From positions 1 through 26,671 of the forward strand of contig JAQUJJ010000041.1 of NCBI GenBank assembly GCA_028681035.1: DNA of 26,671 nt. The letters are read 5' to 3'. Positions 4,011 through 19,346 of this stretch are shown here, piece by piece. Under the pieces are notes generated by a model. It was not told the DNA's origin, did not search any database, and saw only the letters and a program-made list of their open reading frames with translations. This stretch comes from Candidatus Cloacimonadota bacterium (lineage in GTDB: Bacteria; Cloacimonadota; Cloacimonadia; Cloacimonadales; Cloacimonadaceae). The first letter of the stretch is position 1, and the number at the start of each line of letters is the position of its first letter. The translations under genes were made by a program, and so were the position numbers.

Positions 4011-5136
4011 AACCCAACGGTATATTGTAAGTTTCGATAAAGTAATCTTACTTTCGTACGTGCTTCTATGCATTGTGGGGCTTATAGTCATGCTCGATAT
4101 CTCATCAGTACAAAGCTCAATGATGTATTTTTATCGTCAGATTCTATTTTTAGCAGTATCCATGATCGTTGCAGTTGTTATTCTCTACGCATTTGATTTG
4201 GAGAAAACCCGAGTTTTGGCTCCATATATGGTTTATCTAACGTTAATCTTGCTAATCATTGTGTTGTTTAAGGGAAGCACTATCAAAGGTGCAACACGCC
4301 AGATAAGCCTCGGTTTTATTAGTTTTCAACCAAGTTTTCTTGCCCGAGTTGTCCTCGTATTCTATTTTGCACACATACTGGATAAGAGGCACGAGGAATT
4401 GTTAGCTGCAACTCCTATTAAATTCTTAACAGATTTTGCACCATTGATCACTCTCACCGGATTTACTTTCTTGCTGATAATATTGGAACGTCATCTCAGC
4501 ACTTTAATTATCGGGGGAGCTACCCTTTATGGTATGTTGGTGTATGCTGGCACTAAAAAGCGGGTGCTCCTATTAATTGCATTAATTGGGATACTGGGAG
4601 CAGTAGCTATTCTAACTCATGGTGCAGATTATCGAAAAGCGAGGCTTACGACATATAAAAAGTACAGTCTATTCTTTAAGGATAGGAATACTGCCAAAGC
4701 TGATGATAGTGATTATCAAGTAAAGGAAAGCTTAACTGCTTTAACAAGTGGGGGATTGATAGGAACCGGTATTGCGAGAGGAAGAGCAAAGCATTATTTC
4801 CTGCCTGAAGCCAGGACGGATTACATTTTCACAATTATTGCCGAGGAGTTTGGGTTTTTGGGAGCAATATTCGTTTTCGGTTTACACTGCTTACTATTTT
4901 TTAGGTCTTTTCGCATGGCTAATTCCCAAGAAAGCAGGTATTTAAAGTTTTTAGGTGTAGGTTTGGCTATGAACATCTTCTTTAATGTGCTCGTAAACAC
5001 AGGAGTTTCGATGTCCATTCTGCCTCCAACTGGGAACACATTACCCTTTATCAGTTATGGTGGCTCTGCATTATTGATAGATTCTGCCTCTTTGGGAGTA
5101 ATTCTCAATATCAGTGCTGTACGGAGGATAGTATGA
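3997..5136 (+). CDS. ftsW: FtsW, septal peptidoglycan glycosyltransferase (SEDS family)
   Basis: FtsW is a polytopic SEDS protein that polymerises lipid II at the division site with a partner class B PBP. The 379-aa product has about ten hydrophobic helices, an ARGRAKHYFLPEARTDYIF loop and the SEDS signature PPTGNTLPFISYGGSALL near residues 343-360. It is assigned as FtsW rather than RodA because of its place between murD and murG. The start codon lies inside the last codons of murD (14-base overlap), preceded by a purine-rich AGAAGAGA. The end overlaps murG by ATGA. Confidence 0.93.
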   Translation: MKRNRTQRYIVSFDKVILLSYVLLCIVGLIVMLDISSVQSSMMYFYRQILFLAVSMIVAVVILYAFDLEKTRVLAPYMVYLTLILLIIVLFKGSTIKGATRQISLGFISFQPSFLARVVLVFYFAHILDKRHEELLAATPIKFLTDFAPLITLTGFTFLLIILERHLSTLIIGGATLYGMLVYAGTKKRVLLLIALIGILGAVAILTHGADYRKARLTTYKKYSLFFKDRNTAKADDSDYQVKESLTALTSGGLIGTGIARGRAKHYFLPEARTDYIFTIIAEEFGFLGAIFVFGLHCLLFFRSFRMANSQESRYLKFLGVGLAMNIFFNVLVNTGVSMSILPPTGNTLPFISYGGSALLIDSASLGVILNISAVRRIV

Positions 5137-6206
5137 AGATAGCTTTTGGTGGAGGAGGAACCGGGGGACACATTGTTCCTGCACTTGCGATAGCGGAATG
5201 TTTGAAACAGTTAGGGCATGAAGCTTTGTTTATTGGAAATAGAAATAGCATCGAAGAACGTTTAGTTCGAGCTGAAAACTATCAATTTCAAGCTATCAAA
5301 GTTCAAAAGTTATATCGTAGTTTTAGCTTTCGAAATCTGCTTTTCCCATTTTACCTTGTTGGCAGCATTATTAGCTCTTGTAGAATTCTTAAGCATGAGA
5401 ATCCTGATGCTGTGTTTGTAACGGGTGGTTTTGTTGCAGGACCTGTTGCGCTATCGGCTATAATACTCCGAATTCCTGTATATGGTCATGAGAGCAACAG
5501 TTATCCCGGCTTGGTTACCCGAACTCTGGCAAAATACTTCAGGCATATCTACATATCATTTGAATCAAGCAGAAAGTATCTTCCGCAAGCCAAGCTATCA
5601 AACTTCGGAATCCCACTAAAGAGTGGTTCGGAATCTTCATTTTTAGCAGAGTCAATTGGTCTAGTGGCAGATAAACCGATAATTATTGTAAGCGGAGGCA
5701 GCCAGGGTTCTCTTGCAATAAACAATGCGATAGAAAGCATTATCCCAGATTTGATCAACAAGGGTTATCAGCTAATATGGCAAACTGGTAGGACAACATA
5801 TAATAAGTTTGCGGATAAATTCAAGCCGTTCTCTGGTCTTTATCTTTTCGACTTTTCACCAGATTACATAAACATGTTGAGTGTTGCCAAGTTGGCTATT
5901 ACACGTGCTGGGGCGATGACAATTGCAGAATTGGAAGAGAACCGCGTGCCATCAATTCTCATTCCTCTTCCTAGTGCGGCAGAAAACCATCAGTACTTTA
6001 ATGCACTGGAACAGCAAGAGAAGGGAGTATCATTATTGCTGGAGCAATTCAAGCTAACTCCTGAAACTCTAATTAATGCCATCGAAATAGTTGTAAGCAA
6101 TGTAAGCGAATATAAGGCTAAGCTCGAGGGATTACCCCAAAATCAAGCTACTCAAAAAATAACGAATGACCTGCTGATTCATCTAGTGAAGAGTGGGAAT
6201 AAATGA
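5133..6206 (+). CDS. murG: MurG, UDP-GlcNAc:lipid I GlcNAc transferase
   Basis: MurG adds GlcNAc to lipid I on the cytoplasmic membrane face, giving lipid II. This is a 357-aa GT-B enzyme. The N-terminal glycine loop is GGGGTGGHIVPAL (6-18), followed by FVTGGFVAGP (95-104), GHESNSYPG (118-126, in place of the commoner HEQN version) and GGSQGS (188-193). The donor-site region RAGAMTIAELEENRVPSI (258-275) and the ENHQYFNA segment (284-291) are also present. It shares ATGA with the ftsW stop, so translation is coupled. A 77-base gap follows before murC. Confidence 0.96.
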   Translation: MKIAFGGGGTGGHIVPALAIAECLKQLGHEALFIGNRNSIEERLVRAENYQFQAIKVQKLYRSFSFRNLLFPFYLVGSIISSCRILKHENPDAVFVTGGFVAGPVALSAIILRIPVYGHESNSYPGLVTRTLAKYFRHIYISFESSRKYLPQAKLSNFGIPLKSGSESSFLAESIGLVADKPIIIVSGGSQGSLAINNAIESIIPDLINKGYQLIWQTGRTTYNKFADKFKPFSGLYLFDFSPDYINMLSVAKLAITRAGAMTIAELEENRVPSILIPLPSAAENHQYFNALEQQEKGVSLLLEQFKLTPETLINAIEIVVSNVSEYKAKLEGLPQNQATQKITNDLLIHLVKSGNK

Positions 6207-11140: not shown

Positions 11141-11364
11141 GCATTGGGGTGGCAAAGCATTGGGGTGGCAAAGCATTGGGGTGGCAAAGCATTGGGGTGG
11201 CAAAGCATTGGGGTGGCAAAGCATTGGGGTGGCAAAGCATTGGGGTGGCAAAGCATTGGGGTGGCAAAGCATTGGGGTGGCAAAGCGTTGGGGTGGCAAA
11301 GCATTGGGGTGGCAAAGCATTGGGGTGGCAAAGCATTGGGGTGGCAAAGCATTGGGGTGGCAAA
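11141..11364. repeat. tandem array, 14 units of 16 bp
   Basis: Fourteen head-to-tail copies of GCATTGGGGTGGCAAA run without interruption from 11141 to 11364. Only the unit at 11285 differs (GCGTTGG). Because 16 is not a multiple of three, all frames through it stay open and give artificial 16-residue repeat translations on both strands; none looks like a real gene. The final unit runs directly into the first hairpin of the paired repeat at 11357-11438, so the array reads as an amplified flank plus left arm of that element. It fills much of the ~470-base gene-free gap between ftsZ and the methyltransferase gene. Confidence 0.95.
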
Positions 11365-11438
11365 CTCCGATTTGCCACAGCATCCGGAGGATGCTTCTAA
11401 GACAGCTCCGCTTTCTCTGCCAATTCGGAGATTGGCAG
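11357..11438. repeat. paired REP-like hairpins (BIME-type), copy 1
   Basis: Hairpin one has arms GTGGCAAA / TTTGCCAC with loop CTCCGA (11357-11378). Hairpin two has arms CTGCCAAT / ATTGGCAG with loop TCGGAG (11417-11438). The loops are reverse complements, so the two hairpins face opposite ways, as in bacterial interspersed mosaic elements. A third small palindrome (AGCATCC / GGATGCT, 11379-11395) lies between them. A near-identical unit occurs at 18252-18332. Hairpin two starts 13 bases past the stop of the - strand methyltransferase gene. Confidence 0.85.
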
Positions 11439-11451
11439 ACCAATGCGTGGG

Positions 11452-12630
11452 TTATGCTTGCGGTAAAGCAATATCTTGGTGCTTATTAGTCCCTTTTATT
11501 ATCACCTTCGCCAGTTTTACATCTAAATCCCCGTTTTTTAGGCTTTTCTTCCAATGCGCTCTAAGGTGTAATTCCGGAACCAGTTCTTTGTTACCGCACA
11601 GAATATAGGCTTCACTATCAGGGCATTTTTGTTTAAGGAAATCACCAAGTTCATGGTACAGCTTTTTAGTGGTTTCATCATTACCCATGCGCACTCCATA
11701 GGGTGGATTGGTAATTATACAGCGTCCATTTCGTTTGGGTAAATCCTGAAAGCGGCTTACCCGCAAATCTACATTCTCGCCTCCGGGTAGCTTAGCCAGG
11801 TTGTCTTTGGCATAGGTGATACTGCCTACACTTATATCCGAACCGCAGATCAAACCTTTGGGCAAGGGGATAATAAGTGAGTTTTCATTTGCACGAACTT
11901 CTCTGTTTAACTTGCTATCGAAATCTGGCATAAAAGGTAAACCTGTATCATTTCTTAGGTAACCTGCGGGAACATGGCAATAGTGCATCAATGCTTCAGC
12001 CAAGATAGTTCCAGAGCCACATAGAGGGTCAAGTAAGGGCATATCGCCTTTCCAGCCGGACAGCACTATCATGGCAGCAGCTAAGGTCTCTTGCAATGGT
12101 GCGAGATTTGCCCCCATGCGATAGCCCCTTTTATGCATGCTTATGCCAGTTAAATCCAATGCAATCGAAGCCCAATTTTCACGTATATGCAAGTTAAAAT
12201 TGATATCTGCATCTTTCGTCTTAAAATCTGGTCTGCGTCCGTATTTACTCCTAAAACTATCACAGATTGCATCTTTCAGCAATTGCCCTGCATACAAAGA
12301 ATGGCTGATATTGCTGTTACTCACATTGCTATCTATGCTAAAGCTTTGGTCGGGGCTAAACAGGGCAGTCCAATCTATAGCTTTGCTCGCCTGTGCATAC
12401 AGGTATTTCTCGCTGTGGCACTGGAAACTGATGAGCGGGGCTAACACTCTTTGCAGTAACCGCGAACAATAAACGATGCGGTATAATGTTGCCTTGTTAC
12501 AGCTAAAGCGGATACCACGTGGAACTTCTTGCAACACTTTGGCACCCAATTGCTCAAGCTCTGCAATAGCGTGTGTCTCCAGACTTCCTGCTACCAGTGC
12601 GAAGTACTTATCTGTCTTTAAATATTCCAT
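11452..12630 (-). CDS. THUMP-domain class I rRNA guanine-N2 methyltransferase (RlmL N-half/YpsC type)
   Basis: The 392-aa protein has an N-terminal ferredoxin-like/THUMP region (about 10-160, with the VPRGIRF turn) and a C-terminal SAM-dependent methyltransferase domain. The latter has motif I-like DPLCGSGTILAEAL (201-214) and catalytic NPPYG (308-312), the signature of N2-guanine or adenine-N6 enzymes. The length matches stand-alone YpsC-type proteins rather than the ~700-aa RlmL/K fusion of E. coli. By family it is expected to methylate a guanosine of 23S rRNA; the exact site is not readable. Its start is set by GAGGA 5 bases before ATG 12630, and that GAGGA abuts the GTAG foot of the neighbouring REP array. 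It is convergent with the dcw operon. Confidence 0.85.
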   Translation of the reverse strand: MEYLKTDKYFALVAGSLETHAIAELEQLGAKVLQEVPRGIRFSCNKATLYRIVYCSRLLQRVLAPLISFQCHSEKYLYAQASKAIDWTALFSPDQSFSIDSNVSNSNISHSLYAGQLLKDAICDSFRSKYGRRPDFKTKDADINFNLHIRENWASIALDLTGISMHKRGYRMGANLAPLQETLAAAMIVLSGWKGDMPLLDPLCGSGTILAEALMHYCHVPAGYLRNDTGLPFMPDFDSKLNREVRANENSLIIPLPKGLICGSDISVGSITYAKDNLAKLPGGENVDLRVSRFQDLPKRNGRCIITNPPYGVRMGNDETTKKLYHELGDFLKQKCPDSEAYILCGNKELVPELHLRAHWKKSLKNGDLDVKLAKVIIKGTNKHQDIALPQA

Positions 12631-12638
12631 CTTTCCTC

Positions 12639-12804
12639 GTAGGTTCGCTCTCTGAAGCGAACATCATGTTAATCTCGCTCTCTGAAGCGAACTTTTATTT
12701 TAATCTCGCTCTCTGAAGCGAACATCATGTTAATCTCGCTCTCCGAAGCGAACATATATCAATCCCGCTTTCTTTTGTAAGGTCGGTTCAGAGACCGACC
12801 CTAC
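12639..12804. repeat. REP-like hairpin array flanking the RAYT gene, left copy
   Basis: GTAG (12639-12642) directly abuts a hairpin with arms GTTCGCT / AGCGAAC and loop CTCTGA (12643-12662). Three shorter versions (arms TCGCT / AGCGA) follow at 12675, 12706 and 12736, a 30-31-bp period with AT-rich spacers; the last has loop CTCCGA. The array closes with an oppositely oriented hairpin, arms GGTCGGT / ACCGACC and loop TCAGAG (12781-12800), followed at once by CTAC (12801-12804), which is GTAG on the other strand. This is the REP architecture recognised by RAYT transposases. Confidence 0.9.
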
Positions 12805-13448
12805 GGTGCAATATATGTGCCACGCCAGTCTTTCCAATCTTCCACCAATCCTGCATTCACCGGATTCTGGGCAATGTAATCCACAGTATTGTAAAGCTCT
12901 TTCTCATCTCTCACCATGCGGTCATAGCTTTCTTTTTGCCACAGACTTCCCTGTCGGGATAGCAATTTGTTTATTGCCTTTGCGGTGTAGGTTTTCCAAG
13001 TGTATGTGATGCGAGCAGGGGGGTATATTTCTCCTGTTTCCTGCTTTTTGGGATATATTAACACATGCACATGATTTGGCATTATACAATATGCCAGAAG
13101 CTGATATCGAACTTTATCATGAAACAATAAAGCCTCTGCAATAATCTTACAGATATCATCCCTGTGAAGTATCTGTGGAGTTTCGCTGCTTTTTGCTATC
13201 AGTTCATCAAACCAAACAAATAACTGATGGTCTTTTGTTTTCAGAGCATTTGCTTTTTCCGGCTCATTCATGGTTTGGAATTGAGTGTGCCATTCATTTA
13301 TTTGCTTATTATAGTCTTCAAGCACGTGTTTGGGCAAAGTAAACTTCAGACGAAACGTGAAGAAGATTGGCTTATCAATATCAAACATATGGGGAAGATG
13401 CCGGGATTTGTAGTAGGGTTTAAAATTTTCTTCTGAGATATTGTTCAT
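12801..13448 (-). CDS. REP-associated tyrosine transposase (RAYT, Y1/HUH family)
   Basis: This 215-aa single-strand transposase of the IS200/TnpA-REP class would nick and rejoin REP DNA. It shows the metal-binding HUH motif in MPNHVHVL (His126, His128). It also has SLWQKESYDRMVR and the C-terminal VDYIAQNPVNAGLV, whose Tyr191 corresponds by position to the catalytic tyrosine of E. coli TnpA-REP. The N-terminal extension (about 60 residues) is longer than in E. coli. GAGGA precedes the ATG by about 4 bases and touches the GTAG foot of the right-hand REP array. The TAG stop is itself part of the GTAG foot of the left array. The gene therefore sits exactly between two REP arrays. No IS-type ends are seen, as expected for a domesticated RAYT. 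Confidence 0.9.
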   Translation of the reverse strand: MNNISEENFKPYYKSRHLPHMFDIDKPIFFTFRLKFTLPKHVLEDYNKQINEWHTQFQTMNEPEKANALKTKDHQLFVWFDELIAKSSETPQILHRDDICKIIAEALLFHDKVRYQLLAYCIMPNHVHVLIYPKKQETGEIYPPARITYTWKTYTAKAINKLLSRQGSLWQKESYDRMVRDEKELYNTVDYIAQNPVNAGLVEDWKDWRGTYIAP

Positions 13449-13456
13449 AAATCCTC

Positions 13457-13620
13457 GTAGGTTCGCTCTCTGAAGCGAACTTTTATTTTAATCTCGCTCT
13501 CTGAAGCGAACATCATGTTAATCTCGCTCTCCGAAGCGAACATCATATTAATCCTGCTTTCTTTTGTAAGGTCGGTTCAGAGACCGACCTTACGGTGGGC
13601 ACTTCGGAGAGTGCCCCTAC
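13457..13620. repeat. REP-like hairpin array flanking the RAYT gene, right copy
   Basis: A direct repeat of the left array with one unit fewer. GTAG (13457-13460) abuts arms GTTCGCT / AGCGAAC, loop CTCTGA (13461-13480). Short units follow at 13494 and 13524. Next is the inverse hairpin GGTCGGT / ACCGACC, loop TCAGAG (13570-13589), with foot TTAC. A further hairpin with a third stem, GGGCACT / AGTGCCC and loop TCGGAG (13597-13616), is followed directly by CTAC (13617-13620). Loops and feet are conserved while the stems are unrelated. Confidence 0.9.
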
Positions 13621-14450: not shown

Positions 14451-14476
14451 AGGGGCGGAACGGCGTCCGCCTCTAC
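14451..14476. repeat. solitary REP-like hairpin, different loop
   Basis: Arms GGCGGA / TCCGCC with loop ACGGCG (14454-14471) extend by three weaker pairs. CTAC at 14473-14476 is GTAG on the minus strand, one base from the stem. The foot matches the RAYT-flanking hairpins; the loop does not. A smaller hairpin (ACGGC / GCCGT) lies at 14495-14507. Confidence 0.5.
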
Positions 14477-18251: not shown

Positions 18252-18332
18252 GTGGCAAACTCCGATTTGCCACAGTACCCAGAGGATGCTTCGAATACAG
18301 CTATCGGTCTCTGCCAATTCGGAGATTGGCAG
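18252..18332. repeat. paired REP-like hairpins (BIME-type), copy 2
   Basis: The same two hairpins as at 11357-11438: GTGGCAAA / TTTGCCAC with loop CTCCGA (18252-18273), and CTGCCAAT / ATTGGCAG with loop TCGGAG (18311-18332). The ~37-base middle has diverged and lost its own palindrome. The left side carries a short TGG triplet run instead of the 16-bp array. It sits between the MEMO and AMMECR1 genes, just ahead of the AMMECR1 Shine-Dalgarno. Confidence 0.85.
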
Positions 18333-18951: not shown

Positions 18952-19026
<75 letters not shown>

Positions 19027-19034
19027 GTTTATAA

Positions 19035-19108
19035 GGCGACATAGCCAAGCGGTAAGGCAGAGGTCTGCAAAATCTCCATCCCCGGTTCAAATCCGGGTGT
19101 CGCCTCCA
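19035..19108 (+). tRNA. tRNA-Cys (anticodon GCA)
   Basis: Acceptor GGCGACA / TGTCGCC, anticodon stem GAGGT / ATCTC with loop CTGCAAA, T-arm CCCGG-TTCAAAT-CCGGG, and encoded CCA. It lies eight bases after tRNA-Gly, so it is probably one transcript. Confidence 0.96.
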
Positions 19109-19117
19109 ATATTACGT

Positions 19118-19204
19118 GCCGGAGTGGTGGAACAGGTAGACACAAGGGACTTAAAATCCCTCGGGTGCAAGCCCGTGCCGGTTCGATTCCGGCCTCTGGT
19201 ACCA
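19118..19204 (+). tRNA. tRNA-Leu (anticodon UAA)
   Basis: An 87-base class II tRNA: acceptor GCCGGAG / CTCTGGT (two G-U pairs), anticodon stem AGGGA / TCCCT around CTTAAAA, a long variable arm (TCGGGTGCAAGCCCG region), T-arm GCCGG-TTCGATT-CCGGC, and encoded CCA. Confidence 0.96.
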
Positions 19205-19213
19205 TACTTTAGT

Positions 19214-19237
19214 GTAGAGCAGGATGCCAATCCTGCT
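19214..19237. repeat. solitary GTAG-footed hairpin between tRNA genes
   Basis: GTAG (19214-19217) directly abuts arms AGCAGGA / TCCTGCT around a 6-base loop TGCCAA. The geometry (4-base foot, 7-bp stem, 6-base loop) equals the RAYT-flanking hairpins, but the loop differs. It sits between tRNA-Leu and the second tRNA-Gly. Confidence 0.5.
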
Positions 19238-19271
19238 TTATGCTAATTCAAGTGTTCAACAATTTATGCGA

Positions 19272-19346
<75 letters not shown>

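Follow-up and report, generated by a model that had tools for sequence, protein, structure and literature searches.

A RAYT gene of a Cloacimonadota bacterium between REP clusters whose inverted neighbours share foot and loop and carry different stems

Background

What guides REP-associated tyrosine transposases (RAYTs) in the choice of REPs, and why REPs next to each other in inverted orientation often differ, appear as open questions in the portions of the published work considered here. Both are raised by a 26,671-nt stretch of DNA from a Candidatus Cloacimonadota bacterium (contig JAQUJJ010000041.1, "the window" in the following), in which GTAG REPs in inverted orientation stand on both flanks of a RAYT gene. 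For group-3 TnpA-REPs, SELEX and mutation experiments have established that certain loop bases and perfect pairing are needed, that many stem swaps are tolerated, and that GTAG selects the cut (PMC8266576). PMC2817692, PMC3686654 and PMC3116915 cover, in their accessible sections, RAYT-REP coevolution, orthologous RAYTs with different REP classes, and REPINs of identical partners. A literature search returned no study of RAYTs or REPs in Cloacimonadota, the titles retrieved dealing with other subjects, and a search for REP heterodimers led to PMC3733652 alone.

Results and discussion

The RAYT gene and its REP hairpins

The RAYT gene has five full REPs at distances of up to about 175 nt from its ends (Table 1); each combines a GTAR foot with a perfect 7-bp stem that carries a CTCYGA loop. 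The initial annotation had described three 7-bp stems (GTTCGCT, GGTCGGT, GGGCACT) around CTCTGA or CTCCGA with a GTAG (once GTAA) foot, and these were found where it had placed them. It had also proposed weighing loop matches against chance: perfect stems of at least 7 bp surround nine of the 28 CTCYGA hexamers of the window, as against two in total over 1000 simulated windows (first-order Markov). These counts rule out a chance origin: the hairpins are real and well in excess of what chance would give. The flanks of the RAYT gene are direct copies of one BIME, sharing two segments (81 and 53 nt) spaced 788-789 nt apart. Judged by this arrangement, the locus is a REPtron, with a RAYT gene between two direct BIME copies (REP clusters in both orientations). 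At 14454-14476 (-) there is a further REP-like hairpin, in which a single base separates GTAG from GGCGGA[CGCCGT]TCCGCC.

Table 1. Positions of hairpins and genes in the window
Feature	Position	Strand	Details
Inverted pair of non-GTAG hairpins, CTCCGA loops	11357..11439	.	+ GTGGCAAA, - TCTGCCAAT; loops at 11365 (+) and 11425 (-)
RlmL-like gene	11452-12630	-	
REP, GTAG foot, stem GTTCGCT, loop CTCTGA	12639..12662	+	GTTCGCT[CTCTGA]AGCGAAC
Three shortened REPs, 5-bp TCGCT stems	12675..12751	+	Loops at 12680, 12711 and 12741; tandem 30-31-nt units, without GTAG
REP, GTAG foot, stem GGTCGGT, loop CTCTGA	12781..12804	-	GGTCGGT[CTCTGA]ACCGACC; the RAYT stop codon TAG lies inside its foot (12801-12804)
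RAYT gene	12801..13448	-	215 aa; HUH motif His126/His128; probable catalytic Tyr191
REP, GTAG foot, stem GTTCGCT, loop CTCTGA	13457..13480	+	Just upstream of the RAYT start
Two shortened REPs, 5-bp TCGCT/AGCGA stems	13494..13539	+	Loops at 13499 and 13529; tandem, without GTAG foot
REP, GTAA foot, stem GGTCGGT, loop CTCTGA	13570..13593	-	GTAA at both sides
REP, GTAG foot, stem GGGCACT, loop CTCCGA	13597..13620	-	GGGCACT[CTCCGA]AGTGCCC
Second copy of the inverted non-GTAG pair, CTCCGA loops	18252..18332	.	+ GTGGCAAA, - CTGCCAAT; loops at 18260 (+) and 18319 (-)
REP of another class, GTAG foot, stem AGCAGGA, loop TGCCAA	19214..19237	+	The RAYT of L007 is flanked by REPs of this class

Residues 125-128 of the RAYT read NHVH, the HUH motif, and Tyr191 is present; a profile alignment places it opposite Tyr115 of 4er8, which is catalytic (PMC8266576). 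PF01797 scores 25.4 bits on the protein (cut-off 23), and the NCBIfam RAYT family NF047646 77 bits, under its cut-off of 80, which is an annotation threshold and not a biological feature. The TnpA-REP structure 4er8 was the sole match of a profile search at E ≤ 0.01 (E 2.2e-5). With the predicted model (pLDDT 86), Foldseek likewise put 4er8_A first (E 3.9e-8, TM 0.53/0.68), followed by IS200 2f4f (E 6e-4), the IS200/IS605 enzymes ranking below 4er8; the predicted fold of the protein resembles RAYTs more than IS200/IS605 transposases. The gene looks intact, with a predicted Y1 HUH transposase domain in which motif and tyrosine are kept. Among the 120 relatives listed of 318, 56 (P0002-P0057) are 48-62% identical to it, and the two of these that carry an organism name are from Cloacimonadota; the RAYTs of L001-L007 and L011 in our genome collection are 50-61% identical, all in Cloacimonadota. 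The window also holds dcw cell-wall genes (MurF, MurC, FtsA, FtsZ) and a UmuC-like gene.

The same inverted REP stands directly 5' of GAGGA, which resembles a ribosome-binding site, and an ATG both at the RlmL-like gene (12628-12665) and at the RAYT gene (13446-13483), and it may affect the translation of both. These two positions, together with the RNA functions of REPs discussed in the accessible text of PMC3733652, would suit hairpins that act mainly in RNA, as terminators or as folds by ribosome-binding sites, the RAYT neighbourhood being incidental. We regard this as extremely improbable, since hairpins next to RAYTs in many phyla again carry a GTAR foot that is unpaired and strand-specific, and Rfam recognises four tRNAs and no other family in the window, on which ground membership of the hairpins in a known RNA family was rejected. 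The four tRNA genes lie at 18952-19343, the first and the last both scoring 71.2 bits (Rfam), and the AGCAGGA REP at 19214 sits between the third and the fourth.

Stem types in the window and in related genomes

The three window stems had been taken as unrelated. Pairwise, however, only two or three of the seven pairs are different (2, 3 and 3), which rules this out; G1, C4 and T7 are common to all three, and simulation with random stems of the same composition put the chance of a summed distance this small at 0.013. The inverted partners found on either side of the RAYT gene, GTTCGCT and GGTCGGT, are distinguished by pairs 2 and 6 alone. Because the stems are two or three compensated substitutions apart, the new stem-making mechanism suggested by the initial annotation is not needed.

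Matches to GTAG-N7-CTCYGA, with the reversed pattern as control, were scored across 124 genomes of the phylum. The pattern occurs at least once in 115 of them, mostly near the control level; clear excess was seen in G006 (64 versus 6) and G106 (372 versus 12), with 12 versus 3 matches in G057 and seven in G011, six of the latter with REP-like stems. In G006 the CTCYGA REPs occur as repeats, as do similar REPs in G106; stretches from G006, and most of the first ones from G106, were picked for pattern matches, so that the densities given below are not genome averages. The 97 REPs in 20 stretches of G006, counted with loops restricted to NNCYRN, carry the stems GTTCGGA (35), TGTCGCA (29), AGCAGCA (10), AGCAGGA (7), TGTCGGA (5), GGTCGGA (4) and seven singles. 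Nine loops were found on GTTCGGA and six on TGTCGCA; stem and loop are therefore not tied together. In G106, the REPs have the architecture GTAG-NN-5bp-[CTCYG], and the 146 copies in 38 stretches comprise the stems GAAAT (108), GAGAA (17), CCAAT (9), GCAAT (6), TCAAT (3) and GCTAT (3). A scan of G106 for GTAG hairpins with a 7-bp stem and a 6-nt loop found none, because the REPs there are built with a spacer of 2 nt, a stem of 5 bp and the loop CTCYG. Scanning the relatives, as the initial annotation had advised, thus confirmed a loop common to different stems (G006, G106) but uncovered few stem types per genome.

As to the RAYTs of these genomes, a remnant in G006 (L111) shares 61% identity with the window RAYT across 61 residues and has CTCYGA REPs directly after it, while the full-length RAYT of that genome (L007) is accompanied by TGCCRA-type loops, not CTCYGA. 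A further G006 RAYT (in L112), with 40% identity to the window RAYT, has tandem GTAACATAGGCTTTAGCCTG-type palindromes on its flanks, at 4520-4760 and 5370-5590. Within a REP cluster of G106, a weak RAYT match was noted (22.1 bits, below the cut-off; 29% identity over 109 residues).

Orientation of neighbouring REPs

Opposite-facing REPs carry different stems and same-facing ones mostly agree, in the window and, on the sequences compared, at most other RAYT loci. In G006, opposite-facing neighbours at up to 150 nt had unlike stems in 42 of 43 cases (permuted mean 33.0, P 0.00015), and same-facing neighbours within the same distance identical stems in 18 of 21 (permuted mean 4.9, P 0.00005); BIMEs spread as whole units, and neighbour pairs within one genome are not independent. 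In G106, same-facing neighbours were alike in 98 of 99 cases, but close opposite-facing ones were unlike in only three of five, and at the RAYT locus of that genome a stem is shared in 16 of 34 opposite-facing pairings, against the rule.

A survey of 87 distinct RAYT loci, with 450 nt on each side, found at least two REPs by the scoring rule in 57, one in 10 and none in 20. No identical stem occurred across orientations at 36 of the 45 loci with opposite-facing REPs (15/17 in Cloacimonadota and 21/28 elsewhere, the split being made by record title), an identical same-facing pair occurred at 46 of the 49 loci with same-facing REPs, and a sign test gave 31:0 with 6 ties. At least one identical inverted pair is present at the nine exceptions (L009, L010, L023, L045, L068, L069, L074, L075, L177). 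Set aside were duplicate RAYT loci, RAYT fragments of up to 350 nt other than L111 and L177, stems below 25% G+C, and hairpins footed on both strands, save those with GTAG at a single side. The last rule removed the window REP at 13570-13593; with the four REPs kept, none of the four opposite-facing pairings in the window has like stems.

The CTCCGA loop also closes four 8-9-bp hairpins of the window without GTAG, with a foot like TTGGGG or TTGGTC, arranged as two inverted pairs. The sequence TGCCAATCTCCGAATTGGCA (at most 2 mismatches) was present in 13 of the 124 genomes, chiefly G001 (32) and G045 (15). The class occurs as unlike inverted pairs in the window and in L214-L222 and L226-L233; in the stretches examined, the inverted pairs were unlike in 7/7 cases (stems with at most 1 mismatch). 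No RAYT for this class was found in two RAYT stretches of G001 and one of G045. A 16-nt tandem repeat, GCATTGGGGTGGCAAA, runs in four copies (11300-11364) into the first of these hairpins.

Distribution of differences along the stem

Each locus contributed its closest inverted pair with unlike stems and equal length (37 pairs). Identity between the partners was 0.38 and 0.45 at pairs 1 and 2, 0.92 at each of pairs 3, 4 and 5, 0.51 and 0.57 at pairs 6 and 7, and 0.80 for the closing pair and loop. In the 22 pairs lacking a spacer, positions 1-8 were identical in 10, 11, 20, 22, 20, 13, 11 and 21 of 22, and the apex in 52 of 70. Identity between loci at positions 1-8 was 0.26, 0.32, 0.86, 0.46, 0.48, 0.38, 0.30 and 0.53 (apex 0.43), and position 3, being conserved among loci as well, is less telling. 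Of the 48 differences, just 5 fell on positions 3, 4, 5 or 8 (P 7e-9 under even spread, ignoring locus kinship), and the pattern is present in both halves of the data. GGGCACT breaks it, differing from GTTCGCT at 2, 3 and 5. In these comparisons, inverted-partner differences lie mainly in pairs 1-2 and 6-7, with pairs 3-5, closing pair and loop mostly kept.

The initial annotation had suggested that the RAYT may read foot plus loop and leave the stem free to vary. The first part holds in so far as foot and loop are the constant features and are probably read by the RAYT, as sequence comparison indicates and as experiments have established for two other group-3 TnpA-REPs (PMC8266576); it is partly right, and already known in other RAYTs. 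A fully free stem was rejected on the position pattern between inverted partners, in which pairs 3-5 and the closing pair are fixed like the loop or more so; in addition, few stem types make up most copies per genome, and stem type tracks orientation.

In its strong form, the earlier proposal would have the RAYT read foot and loop only while an active process keeps making perfect stems. Quasipalindrome correction, in which one hairpin arm is copied from the other, is an example of such a process. In favour of such a process, 61 of the 97 G006 REPs have perfect stems, and of the remaining 36, with one mismatch, 31 are mismatched at the outermost pair (pair 1) only. Against it stand the few stem types per genome, the conservation of pairs 3-5 and the closing pair between partners, and the relatedness of the window stems, and we consider this form very unlikely.

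Folding of inverted pairs

For 26 unlike inverted pairs, DNA energies of explicit structures were calculated, with either two separate hairpins or one long pairing. Separate hairpins win in 21 of the natural pairs, with a median margin of 7.0 kcal/mol, whereas they win in none of the 26 after the second stem has been replaced by a copy of the first (median -6.7); the other five natural pairs favour the long form or tie. The long form is favoured in the four natural like pairs, in one of them by just 0.2. The left GTTCGCT/GGTCGGT pair of the window comes to -13.7 as separate hairpins and to -12.0 in the long form; made alike, it comes to -13.2 and -25.9. On these calculations, the fold is decided by small stem differences, on which selection may act.

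Taking the evidence together, we propose, with roughly even credence, that the locus is a REPtron whose RAYT reads foot, central stem and loop, that the other pairs vary, and that inverted partners are kept unlike. The RAYT would bind the folded single strand through foot, central stem and loop; GTAG would guide the C|T cut, by analogy with characterised TnpA-REPs; and the remaining stem pairs (1-2 and 6-7) would change through compensated substitutions. Inverted partners would be kept unlike because identical ones would pair into one long hairpin, hiding the foot and both small hairpins.

Drift might suffice instead: the RAYT would ignore pairs 1-2 and 6-7, pairing would be the sole constraint, and no selection would keep the partners apart, same-facing copies being young tandem duplicates and inverted partners older. 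Identity at pairs 1, 2, 6 and 7 in inverted partners (0.45-0.59, 22 pairs) is near that between loci (0.26-0.38), tandem arrays do hold same-facing copies, and any stem difference weakens the long pairing, so that folding energies alone do not show selection. Less easily reconciled with drift are stem types that stay near-constant in tens of G006 copies, GTTCGGA and TGTCGCA above all, and an orientation rule that recurs in two G006 REP classes and at loci in several phyla. We see drift as a real possibility, though short of an even one.

Comparison with known RAYT-REP systems

The group-3 duos of Stenotrophomonas maltophilia and Marinomonas resemble the REPs described here in their GTAG foot and short perfect palindrome, in the importance of loop bases, in the need for pairing and in the tolerance of many stem swaps; their loops have 3-4 nt, as compared to 6 nt here (or, in relatives, 4 nt and a further pair), and stem differences of inverted partners are not the subject of PMC8266576 in the sections available. 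The TnpA-REP of E. coli (fold 4er8) also serves REPs with different stems and loops (the y, z1 and z2 REPs of BIMEs), but these are long bulged palindromes without loop reading, whereas perfect stems and a constant loop prevail here. The GTAG families of Di Nocera 2013 (PMC3733652) comprise sub-families with complementary stem changes and inverted dimers of unlike stems; as far as the accessible text goes, these heterodimers are given "with no obvious explanation", protection from SbcCD is put forward as an idea, and neither Cloacimonadota nor a clustering of differences in pairs 1-2 and 6-7 appears. Selection for complementary mutations in REPs was suggested earlier, in what is accessible of PMC2817692. 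The REPINs of Pseudomonas are likewise units of two inverted REPs linked to RAYTs; according to the accessible part of PMC3116915, however, they join partners of the same REP, with a single hairpin predicted, and are abundant, which is the opposite of the orientation rule found here.

Conclusions

Earlier publications already cover GTAG and loop reading, the tolerance of stem swaps, and REP heterodimers. Two points are worth keeping: the orientation rule combined with loop constancy, and the two-stripe position pattern, of which no description was found in the accessible parts of the REP literature cited. Tentatively, the pattern might be a code used by RAYT systems in several phyla, with foot, pairs 3-5, closing pair and loop as the address and pairs 1-2 and 6-7 as a separate channel keeping inverted neighbours different, which would let every hairpin fold and undergo processing on its own; we think this rather unlikely. 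The position pattern predicts that swaps at pairs 1-2 and 6-7 would be tolerated and those at pairs 3-5 or in the loop would not, and that an identical inverted pair would be a worse cutting substrate than an unlike one. If true, such a code would answer why REP heterodimers prevail, a question left open in the accessible text of PMC3733652.
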